64,000 bases of DNA from Gemmataceae bacterium (GTDB lineage Bacteria; Planctomycetota; Planctomycetia; Gemmatales; Gemmataceae), in the NCBI GenBank assembly GCA_003136315.1, contig PLDW01000323.1, positions 1-64,000 of the forward strand. Direction: 5' to 3'. A program made the translations under genes and the position numbers. Below, one piece after another: positions 2,577 through 31,983 of the stretch (its first letter is position 1; every line of letters starts with the position of its first letter). The notes under the pieces were generated by a model. The model made no database searches. It was not told where the DNA came from and was given only the letters and a program-made list of their open reading frames with translations.

Positions 2577-2626
2577 ACTCCGTCGAGGCTGTGCTGGCGA
2601 TGATCGAGGCCGGTTGGCCGGGGTAA
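2573..2626 (+). pseudogene. 17-codon stub after the CoA-transferase gene
   Basis: An ATG overlapping the preceding stop (ATGA at 2573-2576) opens a 17-codon frame reading MNSVEAVLAMIEAGWPG before TAA. The coupled start fits a fifth operon member whose body has been deleted, since the sequence just after it is intergenic up to the kinase gene at 2752. It could instead be a genuine tiny leader peptide or chance. No function can be assigned. Confidence 0.3.
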
Positions 2627-2751
2627 GGGCGGTCGAAATGCCTCTCCATACCGCAGTAAGGCGGAACACCTCGGACGGCAACCTGTGGACCCACTCCCAC
2701 TGGCGGAGTATCATCGGGCTCTGTCTCCCCCCACAGACTCGGGATCGCCCG

Positions 2752-5700
2752 ATGAACACCGACGACCCAAACCGGACAGCCCACACACCCCGTCCGGAGC
2801 AAGCGGACCCCACATTACCCCCGACTGATCCGAGTACCCGTACCGGTGGCCGGGGCGATCCCTCCCCACTTCCACACGCCCCGGAGCCGACCCAGGCCGG
2901 GGTTGCCCATGATCCGGCCCAGACAATCGACCACGCCCACCGGTCCAGGCCAGTCGAGTCCGACCCGGACCGGGTCACTGTCGATCCGTCGGATGATCCC
3001 GGTTCGGTCACCGTAATCCACGATGACGCCAACTCCCCGACTGCCGATCCCAACACTGGGACGGGGTCACCCGGCGGGGTGGGGCTGACCGGTCCCGTCG
3101 GGGTCAAAGTGGTCACCCTGGACGGGCTCCCGGACATCCCCGGGTATGTGGTCGAGGCGGAGATCGCCCGGGGCGGGATGGGGGTGGTGTTCAAGGCCCG
3201 CCACCTTCGGTTAAATCGTCCCGCAGCAATCAAGATGATCCTCGGTGGGAAGTATCACGACCCTGCGACCCGGATTCGGTTTCTGATCGAAGCGGAGGCG
3301 GTGGCTCAACTCGACCACCCGCACATCGTCGGGGTACACGAGTTCGGCACTCATGAGAACTTGCCGTTCTTCGTCCTGGAGTATGTCGGCGGCGGGACGC
3401 TGGCTGGGAAGCTGGCACGGGAGGGGCGGTTCGCCCCACGGGCGGCAACGGACATGGTTGTGAAACTGGCTGATGGGATCGCTGCGGCTCATGCGAAGGG
3501 GATTGTTCACCGGGACGTGAAACCGGCTAACATCCTGTTGACGGAGGCGGGCGAGCCGAAGGTGGCCGACTTCGGACTTGCCAAGGTGGGTCAGTCGGAC
3601 ATGACGGCGACCGGTGCGGTAATGGGCACGCCCAGCTACATGAGCCCCGAACAGGCGGCCGGTCGAGTTCGGGAGGTCGGGACGCCGACGGATGTGTACG
3701 CCCTCGGAGCGATCCTGTTCGAGTTGTTGACTGGCCGTCCGCCGTTTCTGGGCGACACGGCGATGGCGACGATCCAGCAGGTGTTGACCCGTGACCCGGA
3801 CCGACCACGGGGGATCGATCCGGCGATTCCCCGGGATCTGGAGACGATCTGTCTAAAGTGTCTGGAGAAGGACTCGAAGAAGCGGTACCGGACGGCGGCG
3901 GAACTGGCGGCGGAGCTTCAGGCGTTCCAGGATGGTCGGCCGATCACCGCCCGTCCGGTGGGCAACCTGGAGCGGGCCTGGAAGTGGACGAAGCGGCATC
4001 CGGGGCGGGCGTCCGGTGTCGCGGCTGGGCTGTTGCTGACGGTCGGTCTGTTGGTCGCCTCGAACGAGATCCGGGATCAGCGGGTGAAGGATCAATTGGC
4101 GGCCGAAAAGCGACTGGGTGAAGAGCAGTTGGCGGCCGAGACGAAACGGTTGGATGACCTCCGGGCGGCCGACGAGAAAGCTCGGCAGGTGCAGGAAGTG
4201 ACCCGGCGAGAGACCCGTGCGACGGCGCTGGTCCAGTCGCTGGCGTCGGCAGATACGGCCGGGGTGCCGCGCTTGATCGAGGATCTGGCAGAGTTCCGAA
4301 ACCTGACCGGCCCGCAACTCCGCGAACTTGCCAAGCAGCCGGTGAACACGAAGCCGGGTCTTCACGCTCGGATGGCCCTGTTGTCGGAGGAACCCGAACG
4401 AGCGGGCGAACTGGCCGCGTACCTGCCAGAGTGTCGGCCGGAGGAGTTGCTCCCGGTCCGGTCGCAGCTCAAGCCCCATGCTGCCGAAGTCGCGCCGGGG
4501 TTGTGGGCGCTGCTCACGGACGCGACCGCGGAACCCGGGAAGCGGGTGCGGGCGGCGTGTGTGCTGGCGGGACTGGCCCCGGATGACCCGCGGTGGAAGA
4601 CGTTGGCCCCGGCGGTGGTGGAGCAGGTGACGAAAGAGAACCCGTTGGAGGCGGTGGTGTGGTCGCAGGCCCTGGAACCGGTTCGGGGTGACCTACTGCC
4701 GGCGCTGGTGAGGCGATATCCGGAGTCGCGGGGTCGGATCGAATCCGGGAAGCTGGCGGTGTCGGAACTGGTCGCCGAAGCCTCCGGGTTCGACCTGACG
4801 GCGAACTTGCTCGCCAGATACACGACCGACCGGCCGGCGGAACTGGCCGAATTGGCGATGATTGTAGATGCCCGCCACCATGAGCGGTTCGCGGATGCGA
4901 TCCGGAAGAACCGGGAGGAAGTCGTCCCCGTGTTGCGTGCGGAATTGGGGAAGGTGGCCTTCCCGGGTGGGTTGGTGGGTTCCGGGCTGGCGTCGGTAGT
5001 GGGTGCCGCGGTGTCGGTGTCGGCCCTCGACCCAGACCCGGTGTTCGATGCGGTGGCGAAGCGGAAGGCAAATGCGGCGGCGGTTCTGCTGACGTTGGGG
5101 GAGTCGGAATCGGTATGGCCGCTGTTGCGGTTCCCTGCGGACGGCGACCCATCGGCCCGAAGCTACTTGGTGGAGCGGTTGGCGGGGATCGGTGCCGATC
5201 CACTGGCGCTGATCCGTCGGTTCCGTGATGAGCCGGAGGTGTCGGGGAAGCGGGCGTTGCTGATCGCCCTGGGTGACTTCCCGGTGTCGGCGGTGTGGGC
5301 GGGCGAGCGGGAAGGGCTGGCGAAGGAGTTGGTGACGCTCTACCGAGAACACCCGGACCCGGGCTTGCACGGAGCGATCGACTGGTTACTGCGTCAGCGG
5401 TGGGGAAAGGCTGCGGAGTTGGCGGGGATGGACGCGGAACTGGGGTTGGTGTCGCGGGGTCGTGTGGCGGCCCGAGCGGTGTTCGGCGGTGTGCCAGTGC
5501 CGGGTTTTGGAGGCGTGATGGGTGTGGCGTGTGGCCCATTGCTCCCTGCCCCGGTGGTGGGTCATGACCGGGACTGGTTCGTGAACGGAGAGGGTCAGAC
5601 GTATGCGGTGGTGCGTGGTCCGGTGGAGTTCACACTCGGCTCGCCCGCTACGGAATCAGGGCGGTTCGCTGACGAAACGGCTCACCCGAAGCGGATTGGG

Positions 5701-6378
5701 CGTTCGTTCGCAATTGCAACGAAAAAAGTGACAGTCGAACAGTTCTTGAGGTTTCGGCCTAGACATCGTTGGACGGAGCGATATAGCCCAGACCGTGATA
5801 GCCCGGCGGTAGCAGTGACATGGTACGATGCAGCGGAGTACTGCAACTGGTTGAGCGAGCGGGAGGGGATTCCACCGGACCAGTGGTGCTATGAACCGAA
5901 CAAGGGCGGGAAGTATGCCGAAGGAATGCAGATTAAGGAGGGTCACCTGAAACTGACGGGTTACCGGTTGCCGACAGAGGCAGAGTGGGAATATGCCTGC
6001 CGATCGGGTTCGCTGGCGGGCCGGTATTACGGCCGGTCGGAGGAGTTGCTGCCGCGGTACGGGTGGTACTTGAAGAACGCGGATGATCGGGCGTGGCCGG
6101 TGGGCCGTCTGCGTCCGAACGACCTGGGGCTGTTCGACATGCTGGGGAACGCCAATGAGTGGACCGAAGATCCAGGATTTCTCTATGATATAAGACGTAT
6201 GGAAGATATCGAAAATACGTCACAATTACGATTAAAAGAACAAATGACTCGCCTTCTTCGGGGGGGCTCGTTCGTCTTCACGCCGGTGTTCCTGCGGTGT
6301 GCGAGCCGTAGCGTCAACCGGCCGTCGTTCGTCTTCAATTCGACCGGGTTTCGCCCCTCCAGGACTTCTCCTGATTAG
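2752..6378 (+). CDS. Transmembrane Ser/Thr protein kinase with hypervariable FGE/C-type-lectin-like C-terminus (DGR target)
   Basis: A 1208-residue protein; the ATG at 2752 is chosen because upstream in-frame codons lie in the previous gene. Residues 1-125 are Pro/Asp/Thr-rich and disordered. Residues about 130-400 are an active-looking kinase: glycine loop ARGGMGVVF, VAIK-equivalent AAIKM, HRDVKPAN near 253, DFG near 271, GTPSYMSPEQ. A hydrophobic helix at about 417-437 (AAGLLLTVGLLVAS) is followed by a coiled coil (about 440-490) and a long alpha-helical region. Residues about 955-1208 are an FGE-sulfatase/C-type-lectin fold: FTLGSP, VTWYDAAEYCNWLSE, YRLPTEAEWEYACR, LGLFDMLGNANEW, RGGSF, GFRP. 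Residues about 1167-1203 are encoded by the variable repeat. The layout suggests a cytoplasmic kinase and an extracytoplasmic variable ligand-binding head. Such FGE folds in retroelement targets normally bind ligands and are not formylglycine-generating enzymes. Confidence 0.93.
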   Translation: MNTDDPNRTAHTPRPEQADPTLPPTDPSTRTGGRGDPSPLPHAPEPTQAGVAHDPAQTIDHAHRSRPVESDPDRVTVDPSDDPGSVTVIHDDANSPTADPNTGTGSPGGVGLTGPVGVKVVTLDGLPDIPGYVVEAEIARGGMGVVFKARHLRLNRPAAIKMILGGKYHDPATRIRFLIEAEAVAQLDHPHIVGVHEFGTHENLPFFVLEYVGGGTLAGKLAREGRFAPRAATDMVVKLADGIAAAHAKGIVHRDVKPANILLTEAGEPKVADFGLAKVGQSDMTATGAVMGTPSYMSPEQAAGRVREVGTPTDVYALGAILFELLTGRPPFLGDTAMATIQQVLTRDPDRPRGIDPAIPRDLETICLKCLEKDSKKRYRTAAELAAELQAFQDGRPITARPVGNLERAWKWTKRHPGRASGVAAGLLLTVGLLVASNEIRDQRVKDQLAAEKRLGEEQLAAETKRLDDLRAADEKARQVQEVTRRETRATALVQSLASADTAGVPRLIEDLAEFRNLTGPQLRELAKQPVNTKPGLHARMALLSEEPERAGELAAYLPECRPEELLPVRSQLKPHAAEVAPGLWALLTDATAEPGKRVRAACVLAGLAPDDPRWKTLAPAVVEQVTKENPLEAVVWSQALEPVRGDLLPALVRRYPESRGRIESGKLAVSELVAEASGFDLTANLLARYTTDRPAELAELAMIVDARHHERFADAIRKNREEVVPVLRAELGKVAFPGGLVGSGLASVVGAAVSVSALDPDPVFDAVAKRKANAAAVLLTLGESESVWPLLRFPADGDPSARSYLVERLAGIGADPLALIRRFRDEPEVSGKRALLIALGDFPVSAVWAGEREGLAKELVTLYREHPDPGLHGAIDWLLRQRWGKAAELAGMDAELGLVSRGRVAARAVFGGVPVPGFGGVMGVACGPLLPAPVVGHDRDWFVNGEGQTYAVVRGPVEFTLGSPATESGRFADETAHPKRIGRSFAIATKKVTVEQFLRFRPRHRWTERYSPDRDSPAVAVTWYDAAEYCNWLSEREGIPPDQWCYEPNKGGKYAEGMQIKEGHLKLTGYRLPTEAEWEYACRSGSLAGRYYGRSEELLPRYGWYLKNADDRAWPVGRLRPNDLGLFDMLGNANEWTEDPGFLYDIRRMEDIENTSQLRLKEQMTRLLRGGSFVFTPVFLRCASRSVNRPSFVFNSTGFRPSRTSPD
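6249..6362 (+). repeat. DGR variable repeat (VR)
   Basis: A 114-bp segment at the 3' end of the kinase gene. It aligns without gaps to 7667-7780 at a constant offset of 1418 bases. There are 17 mismatches, every one at an adenine of the template (12 A to T, 4 A to G, 1 A to C); the other 97 positions match. In frame, most changes fall in AAC/AAT codons, turning Asn into Val, Phe, Ser or Thr between RGGSF and GFRP. Just past 6362 the two copies differ by non-adenine changes (6363, 6369, 6372), as expected for the end of the mutagenic homing region. Confidence 0.97.
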
Positions 6379-6422
6379 TTTTTTACTGTTTTAGCATTTT
6401 ACTATCTTACCGTATTCCACTC

Positions 6423-6437
6423 TGCCGCGAAGCGGCA
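6423..6437 (+). other. Mini-hairpin downstream of the VR
   Basis: TGCCGC-GAA-GCGGCA forms a 6-bp stem with a 3-base loop, 61 bases after the VR. The core GCGAAGC is a known unusually stable DNA mini-hairpin. Several retroelements of this class need a hairpin/cruciform shortly after the VR for efficient homing, so this is a candidate for that element. It could also be the transcription end of the kinase gene. Confidence 0.5.
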
Positions 6438-6556
6438 TCGGCACGAAAATCCGAAATTTGATCTGATCGATGATAGAATTTCGTCCCTTCAACGGAGCTG
6501 AACATCGAGGTGTTTCCGTGACGATAAGAGATTGACCGCCACGGAGAGAGGTTGCC

Positions 6557-7645
6557 ATGAAACGGGTTGGGAACCTGTGGGACCGGCTGGTTTCATTCTC
6601 CAATCTCCTGGTAGCGGCCCGGAAGGCCCGCAAGGGGAAGCGGTCCCGGTTTGATGTGCGAGCGTTCGAGTTCGACGCTGAGCGGGAACTCCTCCGCATT
6701 CGGGACGAGCTACAGGCCGGCACCCACACCTTTGGCCTGTACCACACCTTCACCATCACCGAGCCCAAGCCCCGCCTCATCAGCGCGGCACCTTACCGGG
6801 ATCGGGTTATTCACCATGCCCTGTGCAACGTGTTGGAGCCGGTGTTCGAGCGATCGTTCATCGCCGATAGTTACGCTTGCCGCACGGGCAAGGGGACACA
6901 CGCCGCGGTTCGACGCTGCCACGCCTTCGCCTGGCGGTTTCCGTGGGTGCTGAAGGCCGATATCCGAAAGTTCTTCCCGAGTATCGACCACACGATTCTG
7001 AAGGCCCAACTCGCCCGCAAGATCAAGGATCGGCGGGTGCTGGACCTGGCGGCCCGGGTGATCGACCACAGCAACGATCAGGAACCGGTGATCGACTGGT
7101 TCCCGGGTGATGGGTTGCTCGATCCGGCCGACCGCCGCCGGGGGCTGCCGATTGGGAACCAGACGAGTCAGTTCTTCGGGAACGTGTATCTGGATGCCCT
7201 CGACCATTTCGTGACCGACTGCCTCGGAGTCCGCGGGTACATTCGTTACGTCGATGATTTCGTGGTGTTCGGGGAGGGGAAACGAGAGTTGGCGGCGGTC
7301 CGGGAGCGGATCGCGGAGTTCCTTGAATCCCTGCGGTTGCGGCCACACCCAGGAAAGACGACTGTATTCCCGACCCGCCAGGGAATCCGATTCCTGGGCT
7401 ATCGGGTGTTCGGGTCGCACGTCCGGATGGCCCGGGAGGGTGTGATCCGCTTCCGCCGACGGGTGCGGGACTGGCAGGCCGATGCGTCGGCCGGACGGCT
7501 CGACCGGGAGCAGATGCGGCGAAGTGTGGCGAGCTGGCTGGGGCACGTGTGCCACGCTGCCGCCACGAAGTTGCGGGAGCGGATGTTGGGGGAATGGGCC
7601 GCAGCGTTGGAATCGGTGACCCCACCCCTTGCGGCGAACCGATGA
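6557..7645 (+). CDS. Diversity-generating retroelement reverse transcriptase
   Basis: A 362-residue reverse transcriptase with a good ribosome site (GAGAGG six bases before the ATG). Visible RT motifs: KPRLISAAPYRDRVIHHALCN, LKADIRKFFPSID with palm D135, the diagnostic IGNQTSQFFGN at about 199, and the catalytic YVDD at 231-234, then FLGYRVF. The IGNxTSQ version of motif 4 separates DGR enzymes from group II intron and retron RTs. No maturase or endonuclease domain follows, as usual for the class. In characterised systems this enzyme, with Avd, copies the TR RNA and misincorporates at adenines; the cDNA then replaces the VR. It lies between VR and TR on the same strand as the target gene, and its stop codon is 21 bases before the TR. 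Confidence 0.97.
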   Translation: MKRVGNLWDRLVSFSNLLVAARKARKGKRSRFDVRAFEFDAERELLRIRDELQAGTHTFGLYHTFTITEPKPRLISAAPYRDRVIHHALCNVLEPVFERSFIADSYACRTGKGTHAAVRRCHAFAWRFPWVLKADIRKFFPSIDHTILKAQLARKIKDRRVLDLAARVIDHSNDQEPVIDWFPGDGLLDPADRRRGLPIGNQTSQFFGNVYLDALDHFVTDCLGVRGYIRYVDDFVVFGEGKRELAAVRERIAEFLESLRLRPHPGKTTVFPTRQGIRFLGYRVFGSHVRMAREGVIRFRRRVRDWQADASAGRLDREQMRRSVASWLGHVCHAAATKLRERMLGEWAAALESVTPPLAANR

Positions 7646-7666
7646 AGGGTGTGGGTAGCGGCCGTA

Positions 7667-7780
7667 TCGCCTTCTTCGGGGGGGCTCGTTCAACAACACG
7701 CCGGTGAACCTGCGGTGTGCGAACCGTAACAACAACCGGCCGTCGAACGACAACAATACGAACGGGTTTCGCCCCTCCAG
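7667..7780 (+). repeat. DGR template repeat (TR)
   Basis: A non-coding 114-bp repeat 21 bases after the RT stop. It contains runs of AAC and AAT codons in the register of the VR and holds 26 adenines, 25 of them in the mutable part (7691-7762). Seventeen of those are changed in the VR and eight are not. The invariant parts encode RGGSF, LRC, NRPS and GFRP when read in the target frame. It is the RNA template for mutagenic cDNA synthesis. Confidence 0.97.
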
Positions 7781-7981
7781 CACTTCGCCCCACGGACGGG
7801 AGAGCCAGAATCCGGGTGCCCTTCTGTGCCACCCGGAGCGTGCCGGGGTGTGAAGTCCAGGCCACGGTCCAGTGCCAGTTCGCTCACGGGCGGTCTGGCC
7901 GAATCGAACCGATCGCCCGGCGGGTCTGGTAGGCCGCAAGGCTCGAAGGCCCCGCCGGGCTTCCTCATTTCCGGGGTGGTC
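7781..7981 (+). ncRNA. Probable TR-RNA spacer with a long inverted repeat
   Basis: The 201 bases between TR and avd have no convincing gene. They contain a perfect 10-bp inverted repeat (GCCCGGCGGG at 7915-7924 and CCCGCCGGGC at 7951-7960). In the studied phage BPP-1 system about 140 bases 3' of the TR are required in the RNA for RT-Avd binding and priming, so this stretch is the natural candidate for that structured spacer. The function is inferred from position. Confidence 0.5.
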
Positions 7982-8314
7982 ATGTCGAACCCCGAACTGC
8001 CGGTGATTCTGCGGACCTACGATCTGTTGAAGTGGACCGGAGAGCGTGTGGCCCGTTTCCCACGAATTCACCAGCACACCCTCGGCCGGCTTCTCTTCAC
8101 CCACCTTCACGACCTGTTCGACCTGTTGCTGGAAGCGAAGTACACCCGACAGCGAGAACCGTTGCTGACCCGGGCAAACCTGATCCTGGAGCAACTCCGC
8201 TTCCGTGTCCGGCTGGCGTTCGACCTGCGGTGCCTGCGGGCGACCGGATACGGATTCGCAGCGGGCGAACTGGACGCCATTGGCCGGATGGTCGGCGGGT
8301 GGCGGAAGGGGTAG
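7982..8314 (+). CDS. avd: Avd-like accessory variability determinant
   Basis: A 110-residue, all-helical basic protein that matches the Avd family by pattern: PVILRTYDLLKW near the start, FPRIHQHTLG, HDLFDLLLEAKYTR, PLLTRANLILEQLRF, LRCLRATGY, LDAIGRMVGGW at the end. Avd forms a pentameric four-helix-bundle barrel that binds the reverse transcriptase and template RNA in characterised elements. The ATG at 7982 is preferred because the conserved region starts right there and GGGGTGG lies just upstream; longer in-frame starts run back into the TR spacer. The gene order here (target, VR, RT, TR, avd) is a recognised variant of the usual arrangement. Confidence 0.9.
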   Translation: MSNPELPVILRTYDLLKWTGERVARFPRIHQHTLGRLLFTHLHDLFDLLLEAKYTRQREPLLTRANLILEQLRFRVRLAFDLRCLRATGYGFAAGELDAIGRMVGGWRKG

Positions 8315-8502
8315 GACAGTTGCCAGGGGTTGCCCCCGCCCCAATACGTCTGCCCTCCATTCGGTGCGTCTGCCCCGGAGCCCACCCATTGCCCACAACC
8401 CCGGGCGATGCCCTGGTTCTGGACAAGGGAGCAGGCCGAGCCATCGAATAGCTGGCCGACCAGGCTCGATCGGCATCCTCCTCACTTCCCAGTGGCCTAT
8501 CA
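8315..8502. other. Intergenic gap between avd and ASCH gene
   Basis: The DGR operon (plus) and the ASCH gene (minus) converge here. The gap contains the imperfect direct repeat CGTCTGCCC (about 8346 and 8367). I see no second variable repeat, gene or clear terminator. Confidence 0.4.
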
Positions 8503-11373: not shown

Positions 11374-11485
11374 TATAATTAGGCAAAAATTCTGCCGAAT
11401 TTATTGGAAATATCCAAATCCCTGTTTCCTGAGCTTTGCCTGAGAATTCCGCCTGATATGCTGGGAGTTGGTTCAGAAGTGCGTC

Positions 11486-12088
11486 GTGAGTACACCCGTG
11501 GCCCAAAAGAAAGCAAAGACTGGCCGGCCCCCGAAGCTCACCCCCGAGGTGGCCAAGATCATCACCGACAGCGTGGCGGCCGGGGTGCCGTACAAGTACG
11601 CTGCCAAGCGGGCCGGGGTCACCGAGCGAACTTTGATGCGGTGGCTGGCTGCGGGCCGCAAGGCGAAACGCGGACCACTTATGTCACTTTTGTCAGCCCT
11701 AAAAAAGGCCGACGCGGATGCTGTTGCCGGAGGTATCGCCAGCATCCAGTTCGCTGGCACTCCGCACGAAGACGTGATCGTCAAGGAAACGACATTCACC
11801 GACTCTAACGGTGTCCGGACCACCAAGACCGAGACGACAAAGCGGAAGGTGTTCGACTGGACGGCGCGGGCCTGGATACTTGAGCGCACTCATCCCGCGG
11901 ACTTTTCCATCTACTGGAAGGAGATCCGGCAGTTGATCAAGGACTTAGCGGCCCAGAAAGTCCGGGTGGAGGAAGTGGCGGAGCAATATGCCGCTTATGA
12001 GCGTGATAAAGCTGCGGCTTCGGGGGACGGACAGCCATATCGAATCATCCCCAAAGTCGGCGGAGACGCCGACCCCAACGCCATCTGA
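11486..12088 (+). CDS. Helix-turn-helix phage-type protein, possibly terminase small subunit
   Basis: A 200-residue protein with an N-terminal DNA-binding region: TGRPPKLTPEVAKIITDSVAAG, PYKYAAKRAGVTERTLMRWLAAG, the layout of phage small-terminase and transposase-like HTH proteins. The middle has a beta-rich VIVKETTFTD segment, then WTARAWILERTHPADFS, common in small-terminase-like proteins of this kind, and a charged helix. The GTG at 11486 is a reasonable start (AGAAG upstream), but a TTG at 11468 is possible. No large terminase is visible in the window. It is the first gene rightward from the divergent region shared with the DUF932 promoter. Confidence 0.55.
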   Translation: MSTPVAQKKAKTGRPPKLTPEVAKIITDSVAAGVPYKYAAKRAGVTERTLMRWLAAGRKAKRGPLMSLLSALKKADADAVAGGIASIQFAGTPHEDVIVKETTFTDSNGVRTTKTETTKRKVFDWTARAWILERTHPADFSIYWKEIRQLIKDLAAQKVRVEEVAEQYAAYERDKAAASGDGQPYRIIPKVGGDADPNAI

Positions 12089-12412: not shown

Positions 12413-12674
12413 CCCCACGAAAGAGGGTTTGTCGGAAATTTCCTTGACGCCACTTCAGTTGTCCCATCTAATCCATTTACTCGGCGGATCTGGTTTGGTG
12501 GATCTATCGCAGACGCTGGCCTCAATTACTTTGGTGAGTGTGGACGCCGTTGGAGCGCGAGCACCAAAATCCCAAGCGTCCGGTATGTGTCGTCATTGTG
12601 TGCTTCTGACACCACTCCTGAAAACGACGATCGAATGTAATGATATACTAAAAATTCAGTCAGAGGACCGAGCA

Positions 12675-14213
12675 ATGGAAAACCGAATCTGGAGTTTCGT
12701 GCTCGCGGTGACGGTGGGGTTCGCGGGGATCGGCAGAGCGTGCGCAGATGAGGCCGAAGATCGTGCGATCGCAGCAGTGAAGGAAGTTGGCGGTAAGGTC
12801 GAGCGTACTCTCAGACCTACGCCAAGAACATCTGTGACGTTCTCTGACAAATCCAAGGTGACCGACGTAGTATTGAAGGATCTCGCCCGACTGAAGAATC
12901 TGACCACACTCGACCTTAGTCACACGAAGGTGACCGATGATGGAATGATGGCACTTGCCCCCCTCACGGGTCTAACCACACTCGACCTCAGCTATACGGA
13001 GTTGACCAGCATGGGGGTAAAGGCACTCGCACCACTCCACAAGCTGCGTATACTCAGCCTCAGTCACACGAAGGTGACCGACGAAGGGTTGAAGGAACTC
13101 GTCCTGCTCAAGGGGTTGACTCGACTCGACCTCAGCGGAACCGGACTGTTCGGCCTGGGGCTAAAGGAACTCTCCCAACTCAAGGAGTTGGAGAACCTCG
13201 ACCTCAGTAACACCTGGGTATCGGATGCAGGACTCAAGGAACTCACCCAACTCAAAGGGTTGAAAAGCCTCAACCTCAGTTCCGCATCCAAGGGTAAGGA
13301 ACTACCCCTTCTCGGAAAGCTGCCCACAACCAATCCGGGCCGGCCCGAGGAAAACGATTCGGGGTTAAAGGCACCCGTCGGATTCAAGGGGGTTACGGAT
13401 ACGGGAGTGAAGGAACTTAGCTCCCTAACGGGCCTGACCACACTTGACCTCAGCGGGACAAAAGTGGCGGACGACGGGGTGAAGGCACTTACACAACTCA
13501 AGGGTCTGACCACACTGAACCTCAGTCGGACTGACGTGACTGATATTGGTCTGAATGCACTTGGCTCATTCACGGCTCTGACAACTCTCAACCTGAGCCA
13601 TACGAAGGTGAAAGGGGAGGTGGTTATGAAGGAAGTAGCGGGTCCAGAAGACACTTGGCTGGACCCCAACGTGCTCAAGGATCTCGCCACACTCAACCTT
13701 AGTGACACATTGGTGACTGACGAGGGGCTGAAGGTAATCGTCCGCCTAAAAGGCCTCACGACAGTCAACCTCAGCCACACGAAGGTAACTAACAAGGGGC
13801 TTAAGGAACTATTCGGCCTTAATCCCCTTCGGCCGTTGCAACTACTCCCCTGGGCCAAGAATCTGACCACACTCGACCTCAGCTACACGGCGGTGAACGA
13901 TGAGGGGGCGCAGGCCCTCACATCACTCACGGGTCTGACCACACTCCATCTCAGGTCGACTTTGGTGGACGACAAGGGGGTGAAGGCCCTCACCTCACTC
14001 AACAAGCTGCATACACTCAACCTCAGTCATACGTTGATGACAGACGAAGGGTTGAAGGAACTCGTCCTACTCAAGAAGCTGGAAGTGCTCTACCTCTACG
14101 AGTCCAACTTTGTGACACAGATGGCTATCTCCGCTCTGAAAAAGGCAAACCCCGCATGCGTTATCTACTACTCGCCGACAGTGAACGCGGGAGCAGTGCC
14201 TCCGAAGAACTGA
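12675..14213 (+). CDS. Secreted leucine-rich repeat protein
   Basis: A 512-residue protein. The ATG at 12675 has AGAGGA seven bases upstream and begins a signal peptide (IWSFVLAVTVGFAGIGRACA). About 15 leucine-rich repeats follow, of the planctomycete LTTLDLSxTxVTDxGLKxLxxLKG type. One repeat near residue 215 is interrupted by a ~35-residue insertion (around KELPLLGKLPTTNPGRPEE) and another near 320 by an acidic insertion. Such proteins are probably extracytoplasmic binding proteins; the ligand is unknown. The gene lies between two phage-like modules of the mobile element and looks like cargo. A short partial duplication of its 3' end follows the stop. Confidence 0.85.
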   Translation: MENRIWSFVLAVTVGFAGIGRACADEAEDRAIAAVKEVGGKVERTLRPTPRTSVTFSDKSKVTDVVLKDLARLKNLTTLDLSHTKVTDDGMMALAPLTGLTTLDLSYTELTSMGVKALAPLHKLRILSLSHTKVTDEGLKELVLLKGLTRLDLSGTGLFGLGLKELSQLKELENLDLSNTWVSDAGLKELTQLKGLKSLNLSSASKGKELPLLGKLPTTNPGRPEENDSGLKAPVGFKGVTDTGVKELSSLTGLTTLDLSGTKVADDGVKALTQLKGLTTLNLSRTDVTDIGLNALGSFTALTTLNLSHTKVKGEVVMKEVAGPEDTWLDPNVLKDLATLNLSDTLVTDEGLKVIVRLKGLTTVNLSHTKVTNKGLKELFGLNPLRPLQLLPWAKNLTTLDLSYTAVNDEGAQALTSLTGLTTLHLRSTLVDDKGVKALTSLNKLHTLNLSHTLMTDEGLKELVLLKKLEVLYLYESNFVTQMAISALKKANPACVIYYSPTVNAGAVPPKN

Positions 14214-16825: not shown

Positions 16826-19893
<3,068 letters not shown>

Positions 19894-19897
<4 letters not shown>

Positions 19898-21030
19898 TCG
19901 TCCTCAATCGCGACTTCCTGGGCGTTATGGAGTGCGAAAACTCGACCCTCTCGCTTGAGGGTACCATTGCAGCGAATCGATTTCCCGAGGCGGTGAGCCT
20001 GAATGGCGATTTGGTACTCTGCATCCATCAGTTCCACCATCACACGCGCCTGACGACCATCGACCAGGCCGACCACTGTGACTCTGCCGGTCGGCGTTCC
20101 GTCCGGCCGCTCCAGCTTTACGACCGGGCCGTTCAACTCAAACCCGGTGACAGGAGCACGTTCACGCATCAGCCGGCCGGCCTCGCGGATGAGCGGAATA
20201 CGGTCCGCTGGGAAGGTCACCTTCGCGGGGAGAGTCGGATTCGTTGGTCGCGCCGGCGAACACGTGAATGAGAACTCCATCGTTCGCTGCCCTTCGTCTC
20301 CACCCCAGAGCCCAGCCACTGCATCGCACAGGTTGGCGCTGACGCCCTTCGCCACGGCCTCGTCGAATGCATCCATCTTCTGGGTCATTGCCGCCCGCTC
20401 CGCCGCCTGGTCAAGCGCGTGCAGAGCCTCAACTAATGACAAAGTGACCCGTCGCTCGTACGGCTCCTCCTCAAACAGCGTGTGGGCTTGCGTGTCCAAT
20501 GAAGGCGTTACCCTGCTGATGACCGTAATGATATAACTGCCACGCTCGCTCTGACCGATCCGCACCTTGCGAACATATTCCATTGCCTGGGCCGGTTTTC
20601 GTGTGTGCCAGACCGGCCGGCGATCGGTGGCAGCGCACGCCGCGGCGATCATCAAGTCTCGGGTCTTCTGAGCGATCTGAACATTGTCTTCGATCGGCAG
20701 TGTCCCATTGACAGACTCTGGGTCGGCAATCCGGATACGGGTCACGTCTGCGGTGACCATGAGCAGGTCGCTGTAGATCTGCGTCTGGGGCCTATCTTCA
20801 ACGGCCGCGAGGACGTGAAGCAGTTCGCTCATCCGCAGCACGTAGTCCTTGGGCGTGTGATCCAGCGGCAGAAGGGTTTCATATTCCTCGTCGCCGACGA
20901 TTAGCCGCCAGGTCGAGGATCGCCCCGGCTGAAACTTCGTCTGCTCCCAGTTTTTGGAGCGCAGATAGAGTGCCGCATCGACCGGCGGGATTGCCTGCAG
21001 CGCCAGACCATCGCGGATATCGACTTTCAC
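19894..21030 (-). CDS. Unknown protein embedded in the type I restriction operon
   Basis: A 378-residue protein I do not recognise. The GTG start at 21030 overlaps the upstream stop as GTGA, and its own stop overlaps the hsdR start, so it is tightly coupled on both sides. The N-terminal 80 residues are beta-rich ([44 protein letters not shown]). The middle has [20 protein letters not shown] and YIITVISRV. The C-terminus has [31 protein letters not shown] and a final strand pair that looks like an OB-type or barrel module. There is no signal or membrane segment. Position suggests an accessory of the restriction system, either restraining or assisting HsdR, or an independent defence effector. 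Confidence 0.7.
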
Positions 21031-21527
21031 GGCAACCCCCCATTCCCAATACGATCCATCATGGCCCGCAGCGTAGCAACAGTAAATGTCCGCTGTCGGC
21101 TCATCTGCACTGTCTGTCCGGTCGCGTTGGTGCTCTTTTGCAATCCCCGCAGACTCGACCAGTAGCCGCATCGGCGAAGGACCAGTTCTGCCTCCGTGTG
21201 GTCAAGCCAGCCTACCGGGTCGTCGGGAACCAGGACGACCACGAGTATTCGTGGCACCAGAACCGTCTCATCCCGCAGGTCATCGTAGTTTTTCAGCTTG
21301 ATCGAGTGGGGGAATGCGTCTTCGGCCGGTGTGGTCAACTCCTTGCACTTCAACTGAACGTCCAGCCGAGGCGAACGAACGGTACCCCTGCCTCCAGTCT
21401 GGTGTAAAGTCAAATCCACGCTGTCGTCATCGACACTCGGGATGCTCCAGGCGAACCCGGCACATGCAGCGACAGCCTGGATGTATGCTCGGCTGAACTG
21501 TTCCTTCTGCATATCGGGAGTCATCAT
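21027..21527 (-). CDS. DUF4365-like protein with a nuclease-type fold
   Basis: A 166-residue protein with the DUF4365 pattern: EQFSRAYIQAVAACAGF, VDLTLHQ, LDVQLKCKE, IKLKNYDDLRDET, ILVVVLVPDDPVGWLDH, YWSSLRG. The D ... QxK arrangement (VDLTL, VQLKCK) is that of a PD-(D/E)XK-like core, so nuclease activity is possible. The ATG at 21527 is preferred because GAGGG sits just upstream and family similarity starts there; a GTG at 21578 overlapping the previous stop is an alternative. It is the second of three accessory genes between hsdS and hsdR. DUF4365 proteins turn up in defence islands. Confidence 0.65.
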   Translation of the reverse strand: MMTPDMQKEQFSRAYIQAVAACAGFAWSIPSVDDDSVDLTLHQTGGRGTVRSPRLDVQLKCKELTTPAEDAFPHSIKLKNYDDLRDETVLVPRILVVVLVPDDPVGWLDHTEAELVLRRCGYWSSLRGLQKSTNATGQTVQMSRQRTFTVATLRAMMDRIGNGGLP

Positions 21528-21574
21528 CCCGCCCTCGCGACGATCCGGGGCCTGTGATACCTTCAGCCATCGCG

Positions 21575-21895
21575 TCACTTCTCGCGCTTGCGGCGAACCT
21601 TCCGTGCTGCGGCCTTGCGCTCCGCGCGTTCACGTTCGGCTTCCGTACGGGGGAAGCTGATCGTTGAGTCGCACCGATTGTCAGTTTCTGACCGCATCGC
21701 CCAATCGATCTTGGAGACAGCGAGATACTGGGCCTCGGTCTGCATGGTGAACTCGGCCACCAGCCATTCGGGGTTCGCCTCGGCCGATACCCGCACGCTC
21801 GCGGGGTCGTCGGTGAGGCGGTTCGCGAGCGACCGCATGGACTGCCAGTCGTCCTCGGTGGGCGATTCGAACTGGATGCGGACCTGCACGTTCAT
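21575..21895 (-). CDS. Small accessory protein after hsdS
   Basis: A 106-residue protein whose ATG overlaps the hsdS stop (TGATG, 21893-21897). The first 70 residues alternate beta and alpha (VQVRIQFESPTEDDWQSMRSL ... EWLVAEFTMQTEAQYLAVSKI), like a small ferredoxin-type domain. The last 25 are a strongly basic helix (AERERAERKAAARKVRRKR) likely to touch DNA or RNA. No family is recognised. The coupling makes co-production with HsdS certain enough to treat it as part of the system. Confidence 0.65.
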   Translation of the reverse strand: MNVQVRIQFESPTEDDWQSMRSLANRLTDDPASVRVSAEANPEWLVAEFTMQTEAQYLAVSKIDWAMRSETDNRCDSTISFPRTEAERERAERKAAARKVRRKREK

Positions 21896-23259
21896 CACAC
21901 GGCCCTCCCGACGATCCGCTCGGCATCAGGAACCCGCAACTCGCCGGAGATCAGTTTCGGTAGTAGCGCGTCTCGCATCGCTGCAAGGCTGGTGGAGTTT
22001 TGGACGTTTGCGCGGATAGCGGCACGTTGCGGCTCGATTATCTGCGAAAATTTCTGGAGAACAGCATCGTTCGGACGGAGTACTTGCGCCCTCTTCAAGT
22101 CTTTCAGGACAACTCGCGGGATTGCACTGCCCGAAACGAACCCTTCCCGCAAATAAGACTTTGTTTCTTCCGAAGTGAGCCACAGATGTAGATAGGGTGC
22201 TTCTGCGAGTGACCGTGGCCTTAAAATAGCTACCGACGACAGCAATACGACACGGTCATTTTGGCGATACTCACAGGCAGTTTCCAGGCATGTTGCGCCA
22301 TCTTTTGCGAGCAATATATCGCCTTGAAGTGGCTGGCAATCATTCGCTACAAGAGATTCAAAATCTACCTTAGCGATCAGGCGACAAGTACCAACCGTGA
22401 TCCCCCAGTCGGTCATGTCTTTCACTGAGGCCATCGGTAAACCGTCGTTTGTTGACGGAGGGGATTTATGAGCACCGTCAGTGATCTTGGAGCAGTAGCC
22501 AGCGAGTGTGGTTGGCTTCCATCCATACGGGATTGGGCCGAGGGCGGAGTCCTCAAACGAGTCCGGGAAGAGCGTAGCGGTGTCCTTCGACAAGCCCGCG
22601 GGCACCTGGCCAGCGGCTTTCGCTCGAACGGGGTCGAAGTCCACGAACCAACTTTGGAAGATTGCCCGCGCCATCGCCTCCAGCGTCCGGTTCCGGCGCC
22701 GGTTCAACTCGATTTTGTCGTCCAACGAGCCGAGAATGCACGCGATGGCTTGCTGGTGCTTTCCTGGCGGGTTTGGGAGAAGTTGGGCATAAAATGTGTC
22801 ACGGCTCAGACTCGGATTCGATGTACCATCCTTGAGGTGATTGAGACCGATATAGCCAATCAAATAGTACAAGAACTTCATGTGGAGGTTCTCGACTTTC
22901 GGCGTGACAAAGTACGCGGTGTCAATCACCCAGAAGTTAGACGGGCACCACTTCACACCCAGGTTGCCCATTCCTTTTCGGCCGAGGATCAGTCCTGGCC
23001 CTTTGCTCAGGGACTGATTGTGCCAACCGCACTGTCCATTGGTTCCGAATACAGGGATCGACCCTGCGATGCGATTCTTGTCGAGTAGCGCCTTGCCGTA
23101 GTTGAGGGTGACCAATTCGCCTGCCCGAACGAGTGGCCAGGTAAAGGGTGTGTCACGGTTGAATCCTTTGGGCCAAGTCCCTTGGGGGGCATTTGCGTCA
23201 CTCATTTCCCTCTGCCCATTTTCTTGTGGCTGGGGAGGGTGAATCAATTCACCCGCCAT
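21895..23259 (-). CDS. hsdS: Type I restriction enzyme specificity subunit (HsdS)
   Basis: A 454-residue protein with two target recognition halves. Each half has a variable DNA-contact region followed by a conserved helix: PGKHQQAIACILGSLDDKIELNRRRN in the first and VLQKFSQIIEPQRAAIRANVQNSTSLAAMRDALLPKLISGEL in the second. The two halves read the two parts of a split DNA site. The ATG at 23259 has GGAGGAG eight bases upstream; a second start at 23205 also has a ribosome site. The gene overlaps an hsdM tail remnant at its start and the small accessory gene at its end. Confidence 0.93.
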   Translation of the reverse strand: MAGELIHPPQPQENGQREMSDANAPQGTWPKGFNRDTPFTWPLVRAGELVTLNYGKALLDKNRIAGSIPVFGTNGQCGWHNQSLSKGPGLILGRKGMGNLGVKWCPSNFWVIDTAYFVTPKVENLHMKFLYYLIGYIGLNHLKDGTSNPSLSRDTFYAQLLPNPPGKHQQAIACILGSLDDKIELNRRRNRTLEAMARAIFQSWFVDFDPVRAKAAGQVPAGLSKDTATLFPDSFEDSALGPIPYGWKPTTLAGYCSKITDGAHKSPPSTNDGLPMASVKDMTDWGITVGTCRLIAKVDFESLVANDCQPLQGDILLAKDGATCLETACEYRQNDRVVLLSSVAILRPRSLAEAPYLHLWLTSEETKSYLREGFVSGSAIPRVVLKDLKRAQVLRPNDAVLQKFSQIIEPQRAAIRANVQNSTSLAAMRDALLPKLISGELRVPDAERIVGRAV

Positions 23260-23341
23260 AGCCGATCTCCTCCAGGTTGGCCCAAATGAGCCTGTCGGGC
23301 GGGGTGGATTGCTCAGCTTGCTCATGGAGTTCAATAGTCAT
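23249..23341 (-). pseudogene. Leftover C-terminal tail of a second hsdM
   Basis: A 30-codon frame just before and overlapping hsdS reads MTIELHEQAEQS, then DRLIWANLEEIGYGG. It aligns residue for residue with the end of the intact HsdM ([27 protein letters not shown]). Its stop lies inside hsdS by 11 bases, the normal coupling of hsdM to hsdS. So the original hsdM for this hsdS has been lost except for its tail, and the present hsdM sits 218 bases further upstream. The stub may still be translated to reinitiate hsdS. Confidence 0.8.
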
Positions 23342-23404
23342 TCCGCACCGTTACTCTTCCTACGAGCATCTGGGATACTTAGTCTCCCTTACCGTCGTAA
23401 TTGT

Positions 23405-23468
23405 GCCACAGGTTGTGGCACTTTTTGCGGCGAGGGTAATTTCGCCACTGGTTGTGGCTAAATTACCC
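23405..23468. repeat. Two related palindromes between hsdM and hsdS
   Basis: GCCACAGGTTGTGGC (23405-23419, extended by GT/AC to a longer stem and followed by TTTTT) and GCCACTGGTTGTGGC (23444-23458) differ by one base and lie 39 bases apart. The second is flanked by the perfect inverted repeat GGGTAATTT / AAATTACCC (23435-23443, 23460-23468), giving a 15-bp stem with one mismatch. They could be a repressor site controlling hsdS, RNA hairpins, or the scar of the event that removed the older hsdM. Confidence 0.7.
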
Positions 23469-23558
23469 GGGGTTCTGGAAGCCTCGCTATTAGGCTACCA
23501 TTCGATCCATTTCCCGCTCAACTACCGTTTTGAGTACGCCACGGGTGGTGTCGGCTTC

Positions 23559-25118
23559 TTACTCGCCATACCCGATGTCCCTCAGATTGAACCAGATGAG
23601 CTTGTCCAACATGGCCGACTGCTCGGTCTGCTCGCGGAGTTCGGCGGTCAGGCGGGCCATCTTGTCCTCAAAGGGCTCGCCGTCGTCCTCCAACTCGGCT
23701 GCGCCGACATACCGGCCAGGGGTCAGGATGTAGCCGTGGTGGAGGATGTCTTCGAGCTTTGCCGACTTGCAGAACCCGGCCACATCCTCGTATTTCTGGG
23801 TCGCGTCCCTGTCGCCACGCCAGGCATGATAGGTGTTTGCGATGGTCCGGATGTCCTTGTCCGTCAGTTCGCGGTGAACCCGGTCGATCATCGTGCCCAT
23901 CTTGCGAGCGTCGATGAAGAGTGTCTCACCCGGCCTCTTGCGGAACCGGCCGTTTCCCTTGCTCCGGACAATGAACCACAAGCACACGGGGATTTGTGTG
24001 CTGTAGAAGAGTTGCCCCGGCAGCGCAACCATGCAATCGATCAGGTCGGCCTCAATGATCGCTTTCCGGATCTCGCCTTCCCCCGACTGGTTCGACGACA
24101 TGCTGCCGTTGGCCAGGACGAACCCAGCTAGCCCGTTCGGGGCGAGGTGGTGAATGAAATGCTGAACCCAGGCGTAGTTCGCATTCCCGGCAGGTGGAGT
24201 GCCGTAGGCCCAGCGTTTGTCGTCCTTCAGCAGTTCGCCGCGCCAGTCGCTATCGTTGAACGGTGGGTTTGCGAGGACGTAATCGGCCTTCAGGTCCGGG
24301 TGCAGATCACGGTGAAAGCTGTCGGCGTGTTCCCTGCCGAGGTTCGAGTCTATCCCCCGAATCGCGAGGTTCATCTTGGCCAGTCGCCAAGTGGTGTGGT
24401 TCGATTCCTGACCATAGATGCTGATGTCGCCGATCTTGCCGCCGTGTTCCTCGATGAACTTCTCGGACTGCACGAACATCCCGCCGGACCCGCAGCAGGG
24501 GTCGTAAACGCGGCCCTTGTACGGAGCCAGCATCTCGACCAGAACCCGGACGACGCAACGAGGGGTATAGAACTGCCCACCTTTCTTGCCCTCAGCGCTG
24601 GCGAACTCGGAGAGGAAGTATTCGTAGACGCGGCCGAGGATATCCTTCGAGCGGTTCGCCTTGTCGCCCAACCCGATATTGCTGATGAGGTCGATAAGCT
24701 GGCCGAGGCGATGCTTATCGAGCCGTGGATGGGCGTAGTCCTTCGGCAACACGCCCTTGAGGGTGGGGTTATCGCGCTCGACCGCGAGCATGGAATCATC
24801 GACGATCTTGCCGATCATCGGGTCTTTCGCGCGGTTCTTCAGGTTCGACCAGCGCGATTCCGGCGGCACCCAGAAGATGTTGACGGCCCGGTACTCGTCC
24901 GGGTCTTCGGGGTCGGCCCCGCTCTTGCGGTCGACTTCGAGGGCAGCGTGGTGTTCCACGAAGGCATCGGAGATGTACTTCAGGAAGATCAGGCCGAGGA
25001 CGACGTGTTTATACTCGGCCGCGTCCATGTTGGAGCGGAGAGCGTCTGCGGCCTTCCAGAGATCGGCCTCGAAGCCGAGGTTCGCCGCGCTGCCGTTGTT
25101 GGCGTTCTTGGGTGCCAT
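23559..25118 (-). CDS. hsdM: Type I restriction enzyme methylase subunit (HsdM)
   Basis: A 519-residue N6-adenine methyltransferase of normal length. The N-terminal helical domain ([34 protein letters not shown]) is followed by the AdoMet site [10 protein letters not shown], then [11 protein letters not shown] (motif I) and the catalytic NPPF in [11 protein letters not shown] (motif IV), as expected for gamma-type N6-methylases. The C-terminal helix ends in [13 protein letters not shown], which packs against HsdS in known complexes. It protects host DNA and forms the M2S core with HsdS. It is the first gene of the minus-strand operon and is divergent from the unknown gene at 25376. The last 30 codons are present a second time just before hsdS. 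Confidence 0.95.
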
Positions 25119-29205: not shown

Positions 29206-31512
29206 GTGAAATCTCTCCGGCACTTCCGGGAAGTGTGGGCGGTGGACTTTGAGTTCACCGCCCACCCGGGTCACCACCCGGCCCCCATCTGCGTTGTTGC
29301 TCGGGAGTTGGTCACCGGCCAACTCATTCGGCGGTGGCTCGAGGGAGCCGACCCGGGCAGCCCGCCCTACGGGACAGGACCGGACACACTCATGGTCGCC
29401 TACTATGCGAGTGCGGAATGGGGGTGTCACCAGGCCCTTGGATGGCCATTACCGGTACGGGTTCTCGATCTCTTCGCAGAGTTTGCGTGTCTGACAGTCG
29501 GGGCAGTCCCAGCGGCTGGCCGGAGCCTTCTGGGGGCCATGATTTACCACGGGCTCCCGGCCCTCGATGCGGCGGAGAAGGAAGGGATGCGAGCCCTGGC
29601 CATGCGAGGCGGCCCATACACCGCTGGCGAGCGGGCTGCGCTTCTCGACTACTGCCAGACAGATGTTGACTCACTGGCCCGCCTGCTCCCGGCCATGCTC
29701 CCACGCATCGACTTCCCCCGAGCCCTACTCCGTGGCCGATACATGGTCGCCGCAGCCAGAATGGAGTGGCAGGGGGTGCCAATCGACCGTGAGGTTCTCG
29801 ACCTGTTGCGGGTGAACTGGGACCGAGTGAAGCATCAGATCGTTGCGGCGGTGGATGCCAAATACGGGGTGTTTGAGCCGGTCGGGCGAGTGATCGATCC
29901 GAACACCCGACTTGGAGCAGCCCTGACCGAAGCTGCGCGGGATGCGGGGGTGAGTGTCCATACCCTGGCCGAGGCGGTGGACATGCTCTGGCAGGAGGAA
30001 CATGAACGGCACACAGAAACGGCGGAAGGTCTCCGTGAAGCCCGGCGGGCAACCGGTCTGACCCCGTCCCGAATCCGTCGGCTGGAGGGCGAGGGCCGGG
30101 ATCATCTGGACGTGCCGGGGTTGGACGTGACCGCCCGGGAGTTGGCCGGGATGTATCCAGAACTGGGAATCGGCCGCGGGTACGATCCGGACGCCCCCGA
30201 CACCGACGACCACGCCGCGCGGCTGTTCAACAGGCTCCGGGCTCCAGACCCTCGTCCCAGGCCGAAGCATGATCCGGGGTTGATCCGCCAGGCTGTTGAT
30301 CTGGTCGCCGGAGACGGACCCGAGGCCGGAAGGTATGTCGGGCCGATGCGATTCTCAGCAGCGAAATGGGGCGAGTACCTGACTCGTGAGGGTATCCCCT
30401 GGCCTCGGCTGGACAGCGGAGCCCTGGCCCTGGACGACGACACGTTCAAGGAGATGGCAAAATTATACCCGGAACAGGTGGGGCCGGTGCGGGAGGTGCG
30501 ATACGCGCTGTCCCAGATGCGACTAAATGAACTCGCGGTTGGGCCAGATGATCGAAACCGATTGATCCTGTCCGCATTCAGTTCAAAAACCGGTCGGAAT
30601 CAGCCTTCGAACTCGCGGTTTATCTTCGGGCCGAGTTGCTGGCTGCGATCTCTTATCAGGCCCGGCCCTGGCAAGGCACTGGCCTATTGCGATTGGTCGG
30701 CCCAGGAACTGGGGATCGCAGCGGCGCTGTCCGGAGACAAGCGGATGCAGGAGGCGTATCAGTCGGGCGATCCCTACCTCTGGTTTGGGAAAGCCGCAAG
30801 GCTGATCCCGAACGATGCCACAAAGGCCACCCACGGGGCCGACCGTGACCGGCTCAAGGTGGTAATGCTGGGTGTGCTCTACGGGCTTTCAGCGAATGGG
30901 ATGGCCCGGAAACTCGGACTCACCCCAGCCCACGGACGGGAATTCATGCTCCTCCACAAAGAAACCTTCCGGGTGTTCTGGCGGTGGTCGGACATGATCC
31001 AGGATGAGGCCGTGCTAACTGGCCGACTGCGAACGGTCTTTGGGTGGACGGTCCAGGTTGGGCCGGACACCACACCGACCAGTTTGCGGAACTTCCCGAT
31101 GCAGGCGAATGGGGCCGAGATAATGCGTCTGGCGGCCTGCCTGGCGACTGAGCGGGGTATCGGGGTGTGCTGCCCGGTCCATGACGCTTTTCTAATCGAG
31201 GCAGACACCGACGCCATTGCCGACAAGACGGCCCGGATGCAACAGGCGATGAAGGAGGCGTCGGAACTCGTCCTGCCCGGGTTCCCGCTCCGAACGGATG
31301 CCAAGATCGTTCGTTACCCGGATCGATACGTCGATGCCCGTGGGCGGGCGATGTGGGACATGGTTGACACGATCCTGAACGCCCTCGACCCGCCGAGCGG
31401 ACCCGTAACGAATCGTTACACCCACCTGGAACACTTCGTTACGGGTAGGTGTAACGATCCGTTACACCCGGTCCCTTATTCTTCTTCTTATTCCCCCTCT
31501 ATCCCTCTATGA
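29206..31512 (+). CDS. Family A DNA polymerase with 3'-5' exonuclease (phage type)
   Basis: A 768-residue polymerase; the GTG at 29206 has GGGAGG upstream. The N-terminal exonuclease begins with VDFEF (the DxE metal site) and ends with YCQTDVDSL. The polymerase has motif A in AYCDWSAQELGIAA, motif B in DRLKVVMLGVLYGLSANGMA and motif C in CCPVHDAFLIEA. Motif C reads HDA where bacterial Pol I has HDE, as in some phage and plasmid polymerases. No 5' nuclease domain is present. A repeat-like insertion of ~110 residues (about 235-345, containing ETAEGLREARRATGLTPSRI) separates the two domains. It probably copies the element after excision, perhaps with the clamp-like protein at 8921. The 3' end carries palindromic half-sites. 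Confidence 0.93.
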   Translation: MKSLRHFREVWAVDFEFTAHPGHHPAPICVVARELVTGQLIRRWLEGADPGSPPYGTGPDTLMVAYYASAEWGCHQALGWPLPVRVLDLFAEFACLTVGAVPAAGRSLLGAMIYHGLPALDAAEKEGMRALAMRGGPYTAGERAALLDYCQTDVDSLARLLPAMLPRIDFPRALLRGRYMVAAARMEWQGVPIDREVLDLLRVNWDRVKHQIVAAVDAKYGVFEPVGRVIDPNTRLGAALTEAARDAGVSVHTLAEAVDMLWQEEHERHTETAEGLREARRATGLTPSRIRRLEGEGRDHLDVPGLDVTARELAGMYPELGIGRGYDPDAPDTDDHAARLFNRLRAPDPRPRPKHDPGLIRQAVDLVAGDGPEAGRYVGPMRFSAAKWGEYLTREGIPWPRLDSGALALDDDTFKEMAKLYPEQVGPVREVRYALSQMRLNELAVGPDDRNRLILSAFSSKTGRNQPSNSRFIFGPSCWLRSLIRPGPGKALAYCDWSAQELGIAAALSGDKRMQEAYQSGDPYLWFGKAARLIPNDATKATHGADRDRLKVVMLGVLYGLSANGMARKLGLTPAHGREFMLLHKETFRVFWRWSDMIQDEAVLTGRLRTVFGWTVQVGPDTTPTSLRNFPMQANGAEIMRLAACLATERGIGVCCPVHDAFLIEADTDAIADKTARMQQAMKEASELVLPGFPLRTDAKIVRYPDRYVDARGRAMWDMVDTILNALDPPSGPVTNRYTHLEHFVTGRCNDPLHPVPYSSSYSPSIPL
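31405..31465. promoter_or_regulatory. Cluster of GTAACG/CGTTAC half-sites
   Basis: Two palindromes, GTAACGAATCGTTAC (31405-31419) and GTAACGATCCGTTAC (31451-31465), lie 46 bases apart inside the polymerase 3' end. A further CGTTAC at 31437-31442 also pairs with the GTAACG at 31451. Five half-sites in 61 bases are unlikely by chance and look like a repressor operator or an iteron-type replication or partition site. The nearby Xre repressor is the obvious candidate binder. Confidence 0.65.
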
Positions 31513-31934: not shown

Positions 31935-31983
31935 CACCCTCAGCAAGCTGGGTGGAAGTCGAAGACAACTGACACAACCACGA

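Follow-up and report, generated by a model that had tools for sequence, protein, structure and literature searches.

A diversity-generating retroelement and its putative receptor kinase target in a Gemmataceae bacterium

Described systems and their likeness to the locus

Diversity-generating retroelements (DGRs) that rewrite protein kinases have been described in cyanobacteria, where the kinase is the commonest functional domain of DGR targets and where targets remote from the retroelement are common (Vallota-Eastman et al. 2020, PMC7517822; here and below, statements on published systems follow the accessible sections of the papers cited). The locus considered here lies within positions 1 to 64,000 of contig PLDW01000323.1 (assembly GCA_003136315.1, Gemmataceae bacterium), a stretch of 64,000 nucleotides that is called the window in this text, and consists of a DGR cassette with a target gene encoding a Ser/Thr kinase. 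The original prediction for this locus had regarded signalling targets of DGRs as little studied, a view that needs correcting in the light of the cyanobacterial kinases. The latter share with the window protein an N-terminal Hanks-type kinase and a C-terminal, DGR-diversified C-type lectin (CLec) domain, and they also occur as several paralogs per genome, remote targets included. Two modes of action have been proposed for them, either autoinhibition that is released by a ligand or the choice of kinase substrates. Most of the cyanobacterial proteins are predicted to be cytosolic, whereas in the window protein a membrane helix, a coiled coil and a solenoid part the kinase from the sensor.

Two further groups of proteins each share a part of this architecture. 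The Treponema denticola protein TvpA (2y3c) has the same FGE subtype of the lectin fold and a C-terminal variable repeat (VR), but it is a single-domain protein without a kinase (PMC6328139). A kinase followed by a single predicted membrane helix and by a sensor that is predicted to lie outside is the arrangement of PknB-type transmembrane kinases, from which the window protein differs in that its sensor is hypermutated by a retroelement and in that it lacks PASTA repeats (Pfam at E ≤ 0.001 yields kinase models and FGE only). At the level of the whole system, there is a likeness to the antigen-sensor DGRs of multicellular bacteria, which are also present as multiple DGRs per genome and also have FGE/CLec domains fused to signalling domains (Dore et al. 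2024, PMC10907252). Pkinase appears among the target domains in a figure legend of that paper, and some of its CLec domains are predicted to be periplasmic. The antigen-sensor DGRs centre, however, on NACHT/STAND and MoxR-vWA proteins, and vWA, MoxR and NACHT domains are absent from the window target by Pfam, a scan that covered the neighbouring genes only in part.

The cassette is best read as a chromosomal DGR whose target is a receptor-like Ser/Thr kinase with one membrane pass and putative control by a ligand, the ligand-binding end being the part that is rewritten; a probability of about 0.72 is assigned to this reading. DGR-diversified kinases as such are already known from cyanobacteria, and it is the transmembrane receptor layout that is new: no earlier description of a receptor kinase that spans the membrane and is diversified by a DGR was found in the open-licence literature, a coverage that does not extend to the supplementary tables of PMC7517822. 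Also new are the recurrence in one bacterial family, the duplication of the cassette of 5.7 kb, and a remote target with an adenine-biased VR that carries the same sensor on another kinase. Most known DGR targets bind, and few give a readable output. A writable sensor placed across the membrane from a kinase would make kinase activity a readout for somatic receptor diversification and selection, while a sensor shared by different kinases would make this receptor logic testable inside one genome. The system would also lend itself to the evolution, in laboratory strains, of bacterial receptor kinases that are specific for a ligand.

The cassette and its target protein

A 123-base direct repeat connects the end of the target gene (6249-6371) with an intergenic copy at 7667-7789 (Table 1). 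When the intergenic copy is taken as the template repeat (TR), 17 of the 27 adenines are changed in the VR, compared with 2 of the 96 other bases (Fisher p = 4e-12). At the first of these two non-adenine positions, the TR of the window and that of a second cassette on contig C362 both have C, and all seven VRs compared have G; at the second, both TRs have G and five of the seven VRs have T. The C/G difference at the 3' end presumably represents the expected pair of initiation of mutagenic homing (IMH) sequences, IMH and IMH*. Because adenine-specific VR/TR changes coincide with a reverse transcriptase (RT) and a bAvd protein in cis, the segment 2588-8319 is a complete DGR and not a chance repeat. 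It combines adenine-directed changes, an RT with TR/VR-linked relatives, an Avd protein and a 3' VR in a gene for a C-type-lectin fold. As read from the two repeats, TR RNA is shown to be the template, and adenine-directed copies of it have replaced the VR encoding the last ~40 residues of the FGE domain, with at most 16 codons changed. Rfam at gathering thresholds gave no match in the window between 2000 and 9000, and no terminal repeats were evident at the cassette edges in two edge alignments.

The repeats could in principle be a remnant of ordinary gene conversion or duplication, and older VR-like ends with many non-adenine changes do exist in the same genome (22/96 on contig C383 and 24/96 on C303). 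For the window, this origin is contradicted by the adenine specificity, by the 3'-terminal position of its only two non-adenine changes (2/96), and by the presence of RT, bAvd and TR in cis, which leave it with next to no probability.

Table 1. Positions of the cassette, its genes and repeats, and the domains of the target protein in the window
Feature	Position	Strand	Basis
Whole DGR cassette (target gene, RT, TR, bAvd)	2588..8319	+	87% identical unit on contig C362
Target gene (variable protein), 1208 aa	2752..6378	+	Open reading frame; start kept in paralogs
Ser/Thr protein kinase domain, residues 132-381	3145..3894	+	PF00069 E 2.9e-48
Predicted membrane helix, residues ~418-438, K/R-rich N-terminal flank	4003..4065	+	Hydropathy, conservation; helix in model
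Coiled coil (~457-499) and helical solenoid (~502-911)	4120..5484	+	AlphaFold2 (AF2) model of residues 100-1208
Further hydrophobic stretch (residues 735-759), rich in Gly, questionable as a membrane segment	4954..5028	+	Hydropathy up to 1.85
FGE-type C-type-lectin domain, residues 950-1208	5599..6375	+	PF03781 E 5.9e-39; model; VIA match
Variable repeat (VR)	6249..6371	+	Comparison with TR; residues ~1167-1207
VR/TR non-adenine differences, only two, 3' end, IMH-like	6363..6369	+	
DGR reverse transcriptase, 362 aa	6557..7645	+	PF00078 (RVT_1) E 3.2e-21; phrog_1423 E 1.5e-124
Template repeat (TR)	7667..7789	+	Direct repeat; C362 copy 97% identical
bAvd accessory protein	~7982..8314	+	PF22296 E 8.3e-11, 42.8 bits (cut-off 40)

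Pfam assigns residues 132-381 of the target protein to Pkinase and residues 959-1201 to FGE-sulfatase. The isolated FGE domain, modelled with AF2 from 76 related sequences, reached a predicted local distance difference test score (pLDDT) of 94 and a predicted template modelling score (pTM) of 0.93. Its best VIA match is TvpA, the DGR variable protein of T. denticola (2y3c; Z 30.8, 2.2 Å, 241 residues), with clearly lower scores for human FGE (Z ~24.6) and the phage receptor-binding protein Mtd (Z ~13). The FGE fold is identified both by PF03781 and by the VIA match to human FGE. Variable residues are reported to be solvent-exposed and to form a binding site in structurally characterised CLec DGR proteins (PMC6328139), and the match to the TvpA fold predicts that the VR residues of the window protein are exposed as well. 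Among nine paralogs of the genome, mean pairwise identity is 25% at adenine codons, compared with 71% at the other VR codons and 70% in the remaining FGE domain, and none of 20000 permutations reached an adenine-codon identity as low. The broken copy on C202 was excluded from protein alignments, and the C16 copy, which has a 3-base insertion, from VR/TR statistics. The hypervariable residues end the FGE/C-type-lectin fold as originally predicted, to within a few residues of the range given here.

The Cys that we equate with C341 of human FGE (C336 and C341 being the catalytic pair according to PDB titles) is replaced by Ser in the C2 and C509 paralogs, and the residue five positions earlier is Pro in six and Ala in three of the nine.

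By sequence, the kinase is most closely related to PknB of Mycobacterium tuberculosis (1mru; phmmer E 5e-57), which is also the best VIA structural match of the modelled kinase (Z 34.8). The β3 Lys161, the αC Glu, the HRD Asp255, Asn260, the DFG Asp273 and the PE Glu are all present. The aligned kinases retain the residues checked, with two exceptions: in G028b the N-terminal part is cut off by a contig end, and in G064 Q replaces the PE-motif Glu. Sequence and model support an intact Hanks-type (PknB-like) Ser/Thr kinase of putative activity. The proposal that the retroelement diversifies a transmembrane Ser/Thr kinase with an intact catalytic domain is supported by these residues, by the adenine-specific VR/TR changes, by the presence of RT and bAvd in cis, and by the conservation of the membrane helix. 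A passive role of the kinase, as the anchor of an adhesin or kin-recognition protein, would be in line with the membrane and adhesion/binding domains of most cellular DGR targets (PMC8144416), but catalytic residues are retained across the aligned kinases and the kinases of the twin cassettes are 98% identical, compared with 83% for the post-membrane parts, which makes such a role rather improbable.

Directly 5' of the VR lies a tract of ~78 bases (6171-6248) with 32% GC and AT-ending synonymous codons, which is found at the same place in paralogs. Its GC content at third codon positions is 19%, compared with a gene mean of 77%, and is the lowest along the target gene; over 59 other DGR target genes, this position has a median percentile of 0.22. 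The tract was rejected as a DGR signal, since, of 20 further FGE-type loci in this genome, seven could be scored and six of these seven have it as well.

Membrane topology and signalling

The AF2 model of residues 100-1208 shows, at fair confidence, the kinase, a long helix over the membrane segment, the coiled coil and the solenoid. The coiled coil and the ~400-residue helical solenoid between membrane and FGE domain had been missed before; the membrane helix had been placed at residues ~417-437 and is found at ~418-438, but a second stretch at 735-759, which scores slightly higher by plain hydropathy, had been overlooked. Eight other solenoid paralogs have their best hydrophobic segment of the region from kinase to FGE domain at the homologous place, preceded by 5-7 K/R within 20 residues. 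A kinase inside and an FGE domain outside the cytoplasm are predicted because this helix has a positive-inside K/R flank and is kept in paralogs. The kinase targets of four relatives also have a segment called between the two domains, in one of the four (G078a) without the charge bias. In genome G078, one TR matches the VRs of both a kinase-membrane-FGE protein and an FGE protein of 288 residues whose start resembles a signal peptide. The membrane helix, its flank and this twin target favour an extracytoplasmic VR, and such a placement is predicted to be quite likely.

Several points weigh against a single crossing with the VR outside. The topology is deduced from hydropathy, charge and comparison only, and in the full-length AF2 model the FGE part, and with it the orientation of the domains, has poor confidence. 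The stretch 741-759 scores 1.85 in hydropathy, compared with 1.67 for the helix at ~418-438, and this stretch is moderately hydrophobic in 9/9 close paralogs (1.44-1.89); a second crossing there would return the VR to the inside. Furthermore, the twin G010 combines kinase and FGE domain with no membrane segment called. A cytoplasmic VR domain, resulting either from this second crossing or from a first segment that does not insert, would select kinase substrates or intracellular ligands. It would agree with the mostly cytosolic prediction for cyanobacterial DGR targets, for which the choice of substrates has been put forward as one of two explanations (PMC7517822), with the lack of a called segment in G010, and with 741-759 being the most hydrophobic stretch of the window protein.

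This alternative is nevertheless unlikely. In the model, the 735-759 stretch is a low-confidence, non-helical insert within the solenoid, it is rich in Gly and Pro, and it contains a Glu in C16. The more distant relatives C74, C453, C359 and G028b each have a single candidate membrane segment, and the TR of G078 is common to a kinase target and a signal-peptide FGE target. The outcome that was to refute the mutable extracytoplasmic sensor of the original prediction, a buried or cytoplasmic VR, was not seen, as the FGE domain models well and has TvpA as its best match, while its extracytoplasmic placement is a prediction.

For the receptor-like reading, the following sequence of events can be proposed. 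As the sequence shows, adenine-directed rewriting has altered the VR while the remaining protein has stayed conserved. The kinase would be located in the cytoplasm and be connected by one membrane crossing to the coiled coil, the solenoid and the VR face, all predicted to be outside. Binding of a ligand to the variable face may then change dimerisation or clustering via the coiled coil and so turn the PknB-like kinase on or off, and selection would keep useful VR alleles. We infer a ligand-activated kinase and an immune-like logic.

Paralogs in the genome and relatives elsewhere

The source genome (11.6 Mb in 524 contigs, 92.5% complete, 3.5% contamination) contains the second cassette at C362:666-6470. 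The similarity of 87% to the window is limited to 2588-8319 and the flanks are unrelated, which indicates that target gene, RT, TR and bAvd travel as one 5.7-kb unit. The C362 VR differs from its own TR at 10 of 28 adenines and 4 of 95 other bases. Where the two TR copies differ, each VR matches its own TR, and both cassettes are thus written in cis.

The FGE domain is found in the genome in ten closely related copies, with identities of 63-100%. One of them, on C202, is broken by in-frame stops, and the other nine are kinase-membrane-solenoid-FGE proteins. The broken copy still has an adenine-biased VR (15/27 adenines vs 13/96 other bases). In the part that follows the membrane, the C121 and C2 proteins share 78-79% identity with the window protein, whereas their kinases share only 45-46% with its kinase, compared with 69-98% for the other paralogs. 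This divergence of the kinase next to a conserved post-membrane part indicates that the paralogs share a sensor whose kinase has been exchanged.

The copies other than the two cassettes have neither RT nor TR sequence in the stretch examined beside them, and a weak Avd-like match (E 0.033) lies beside the C303 copy. Most of the related kinases of the genome appear to be without a local RT, and at least one appears to be written from a distant TR. In this protein, C121, 13 of 27 adenines and 7 of 96 other bases of the VR are changed (p = 5e-6), and no cassette sequence follows within ~430 bases after the stop. Writing from a distant TR is suggested by the adenine bias of this VR and by the fact that only five of the seven other differences are absent from both TRs. 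In the C2 copy, 12/27 adenines and 16/96 other bases are changed, and this VR seems to be older, as do those of C383 and C303. The genome encodes two more DGR RTs, on contigs C2 and C288, and the DGR on the C2 contig has as its target a caspase-FGE protein with a signal-peptide-like start (L081 9541-11289, minus strand). The receptor kinases of the genome could form a dispersed repertoire in which interchangeable kinases are joined to a common sensor that the retroelement can write, in which the cassette TRs also write remote targets and the same random surface is connected to different outputs. This idea is a doubtful one at present; if true, the repertoire would be a bacterial analogue of keeping the tip of an antibody and changing its effector end.

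For comparison with other genomes, the best 80 loci of an RT-profile scan of named genomes were kept; with the addition of the loci from the family and of both cassettes, 95 loci were scanned for TR and VR. A TR/VR-like pair was found in 74 of them by the criteria of the script, a number that includes a few reciprocal or spurious matches. After removal of candidates that failed limits on position, length or adenine fraction, 77 of 98 candidate target open reading frames remained, of which 64 were aligned and scanned with Pfam; the 13 omitted are mostly second targets or near duplicates, and the window protein is not among the 64. All 64 have an FGE domain, and NACHT is found in 12, a kinase in seven, a caspase in seven and TIR in four. 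Kinase-FGE fusions account for 6/10 targets from the window's own family and for 1/54 of other origin. The latter, from a planctomycete metagenome-assembled genome (L096 9151-14052, minus strand), is a DGR target in which a Ser/Thr kinase, an nSTAND1 NTPase and FGE are fused. The kinase-FGE fusion of G064 (L080) yielded no TR/VR pair with the same-strand finder and was not counted as DGR-linked.

None of the cyanobacterial loci in the RT scan has a kinase target. The kinase HRD motif is absent in every frame from 80 viral-contig loci with related RTs; this negative is complete for the motif but weak for targets, since the script found a target in only 6/80 of these loci. Solenoid homologs are present in 38/95 family genomes and RT relatives at E ≤ 1e-20 in 18/95, the weaker ones of which are probably other RT types. 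The receptor family is accordingly broader than the DGR, which looks like a later addition to it.

The domains found on related targets bear on what such a receptor may sense. The variable face could sample phage or competitor molecules, with the kinase starting a defence or death response. Related RTs diversify NACHT (12/64), caspase and TIR proteins, another DGR of the same genome acts on a caspase-FGE protein, and L096 joins a kinase to nSTAND1 and FGE. Furthermore, both cassette contigs carry restriction-modification (RM) genes and integrases, and an antigen-sensor reading has been published for related DGRs (PMC10907252). On the other hand, RM genes next to an integrase are common in mobile islands, and no effector gene was found in the conserved 5.7-kb unit. 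An anti-invader sensor is a tentative possibility; with phages, competitors, surfaces and nutrients as candidate ligands, the RM and integrase neighbours and the conflict-type domains on related targets make us lean towards the sensing of biological threats.

The window contains a complete type I RM set (R, S and M) followed by a family A DNA polymerase and an integrase (16829-25118, minus strand, and 29206-34193, plus strand), and the second cassette on C362 has beside it genes for a type IIG RM enzyme and for two integrases of phage type (L095 1357-4692 and 12035-15152). A phage-like gene at 321-1505 has a strong match to phrog_11143, to which no function is assigned there, and is related to ABC ATPase and GNAT-like domains by Pfam. 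Downstream of the cassette, the window encodes a terminase small-subunit-like protein (11468-12088) and a leucine-rich-repeat protein (12429-14213, plus strand).

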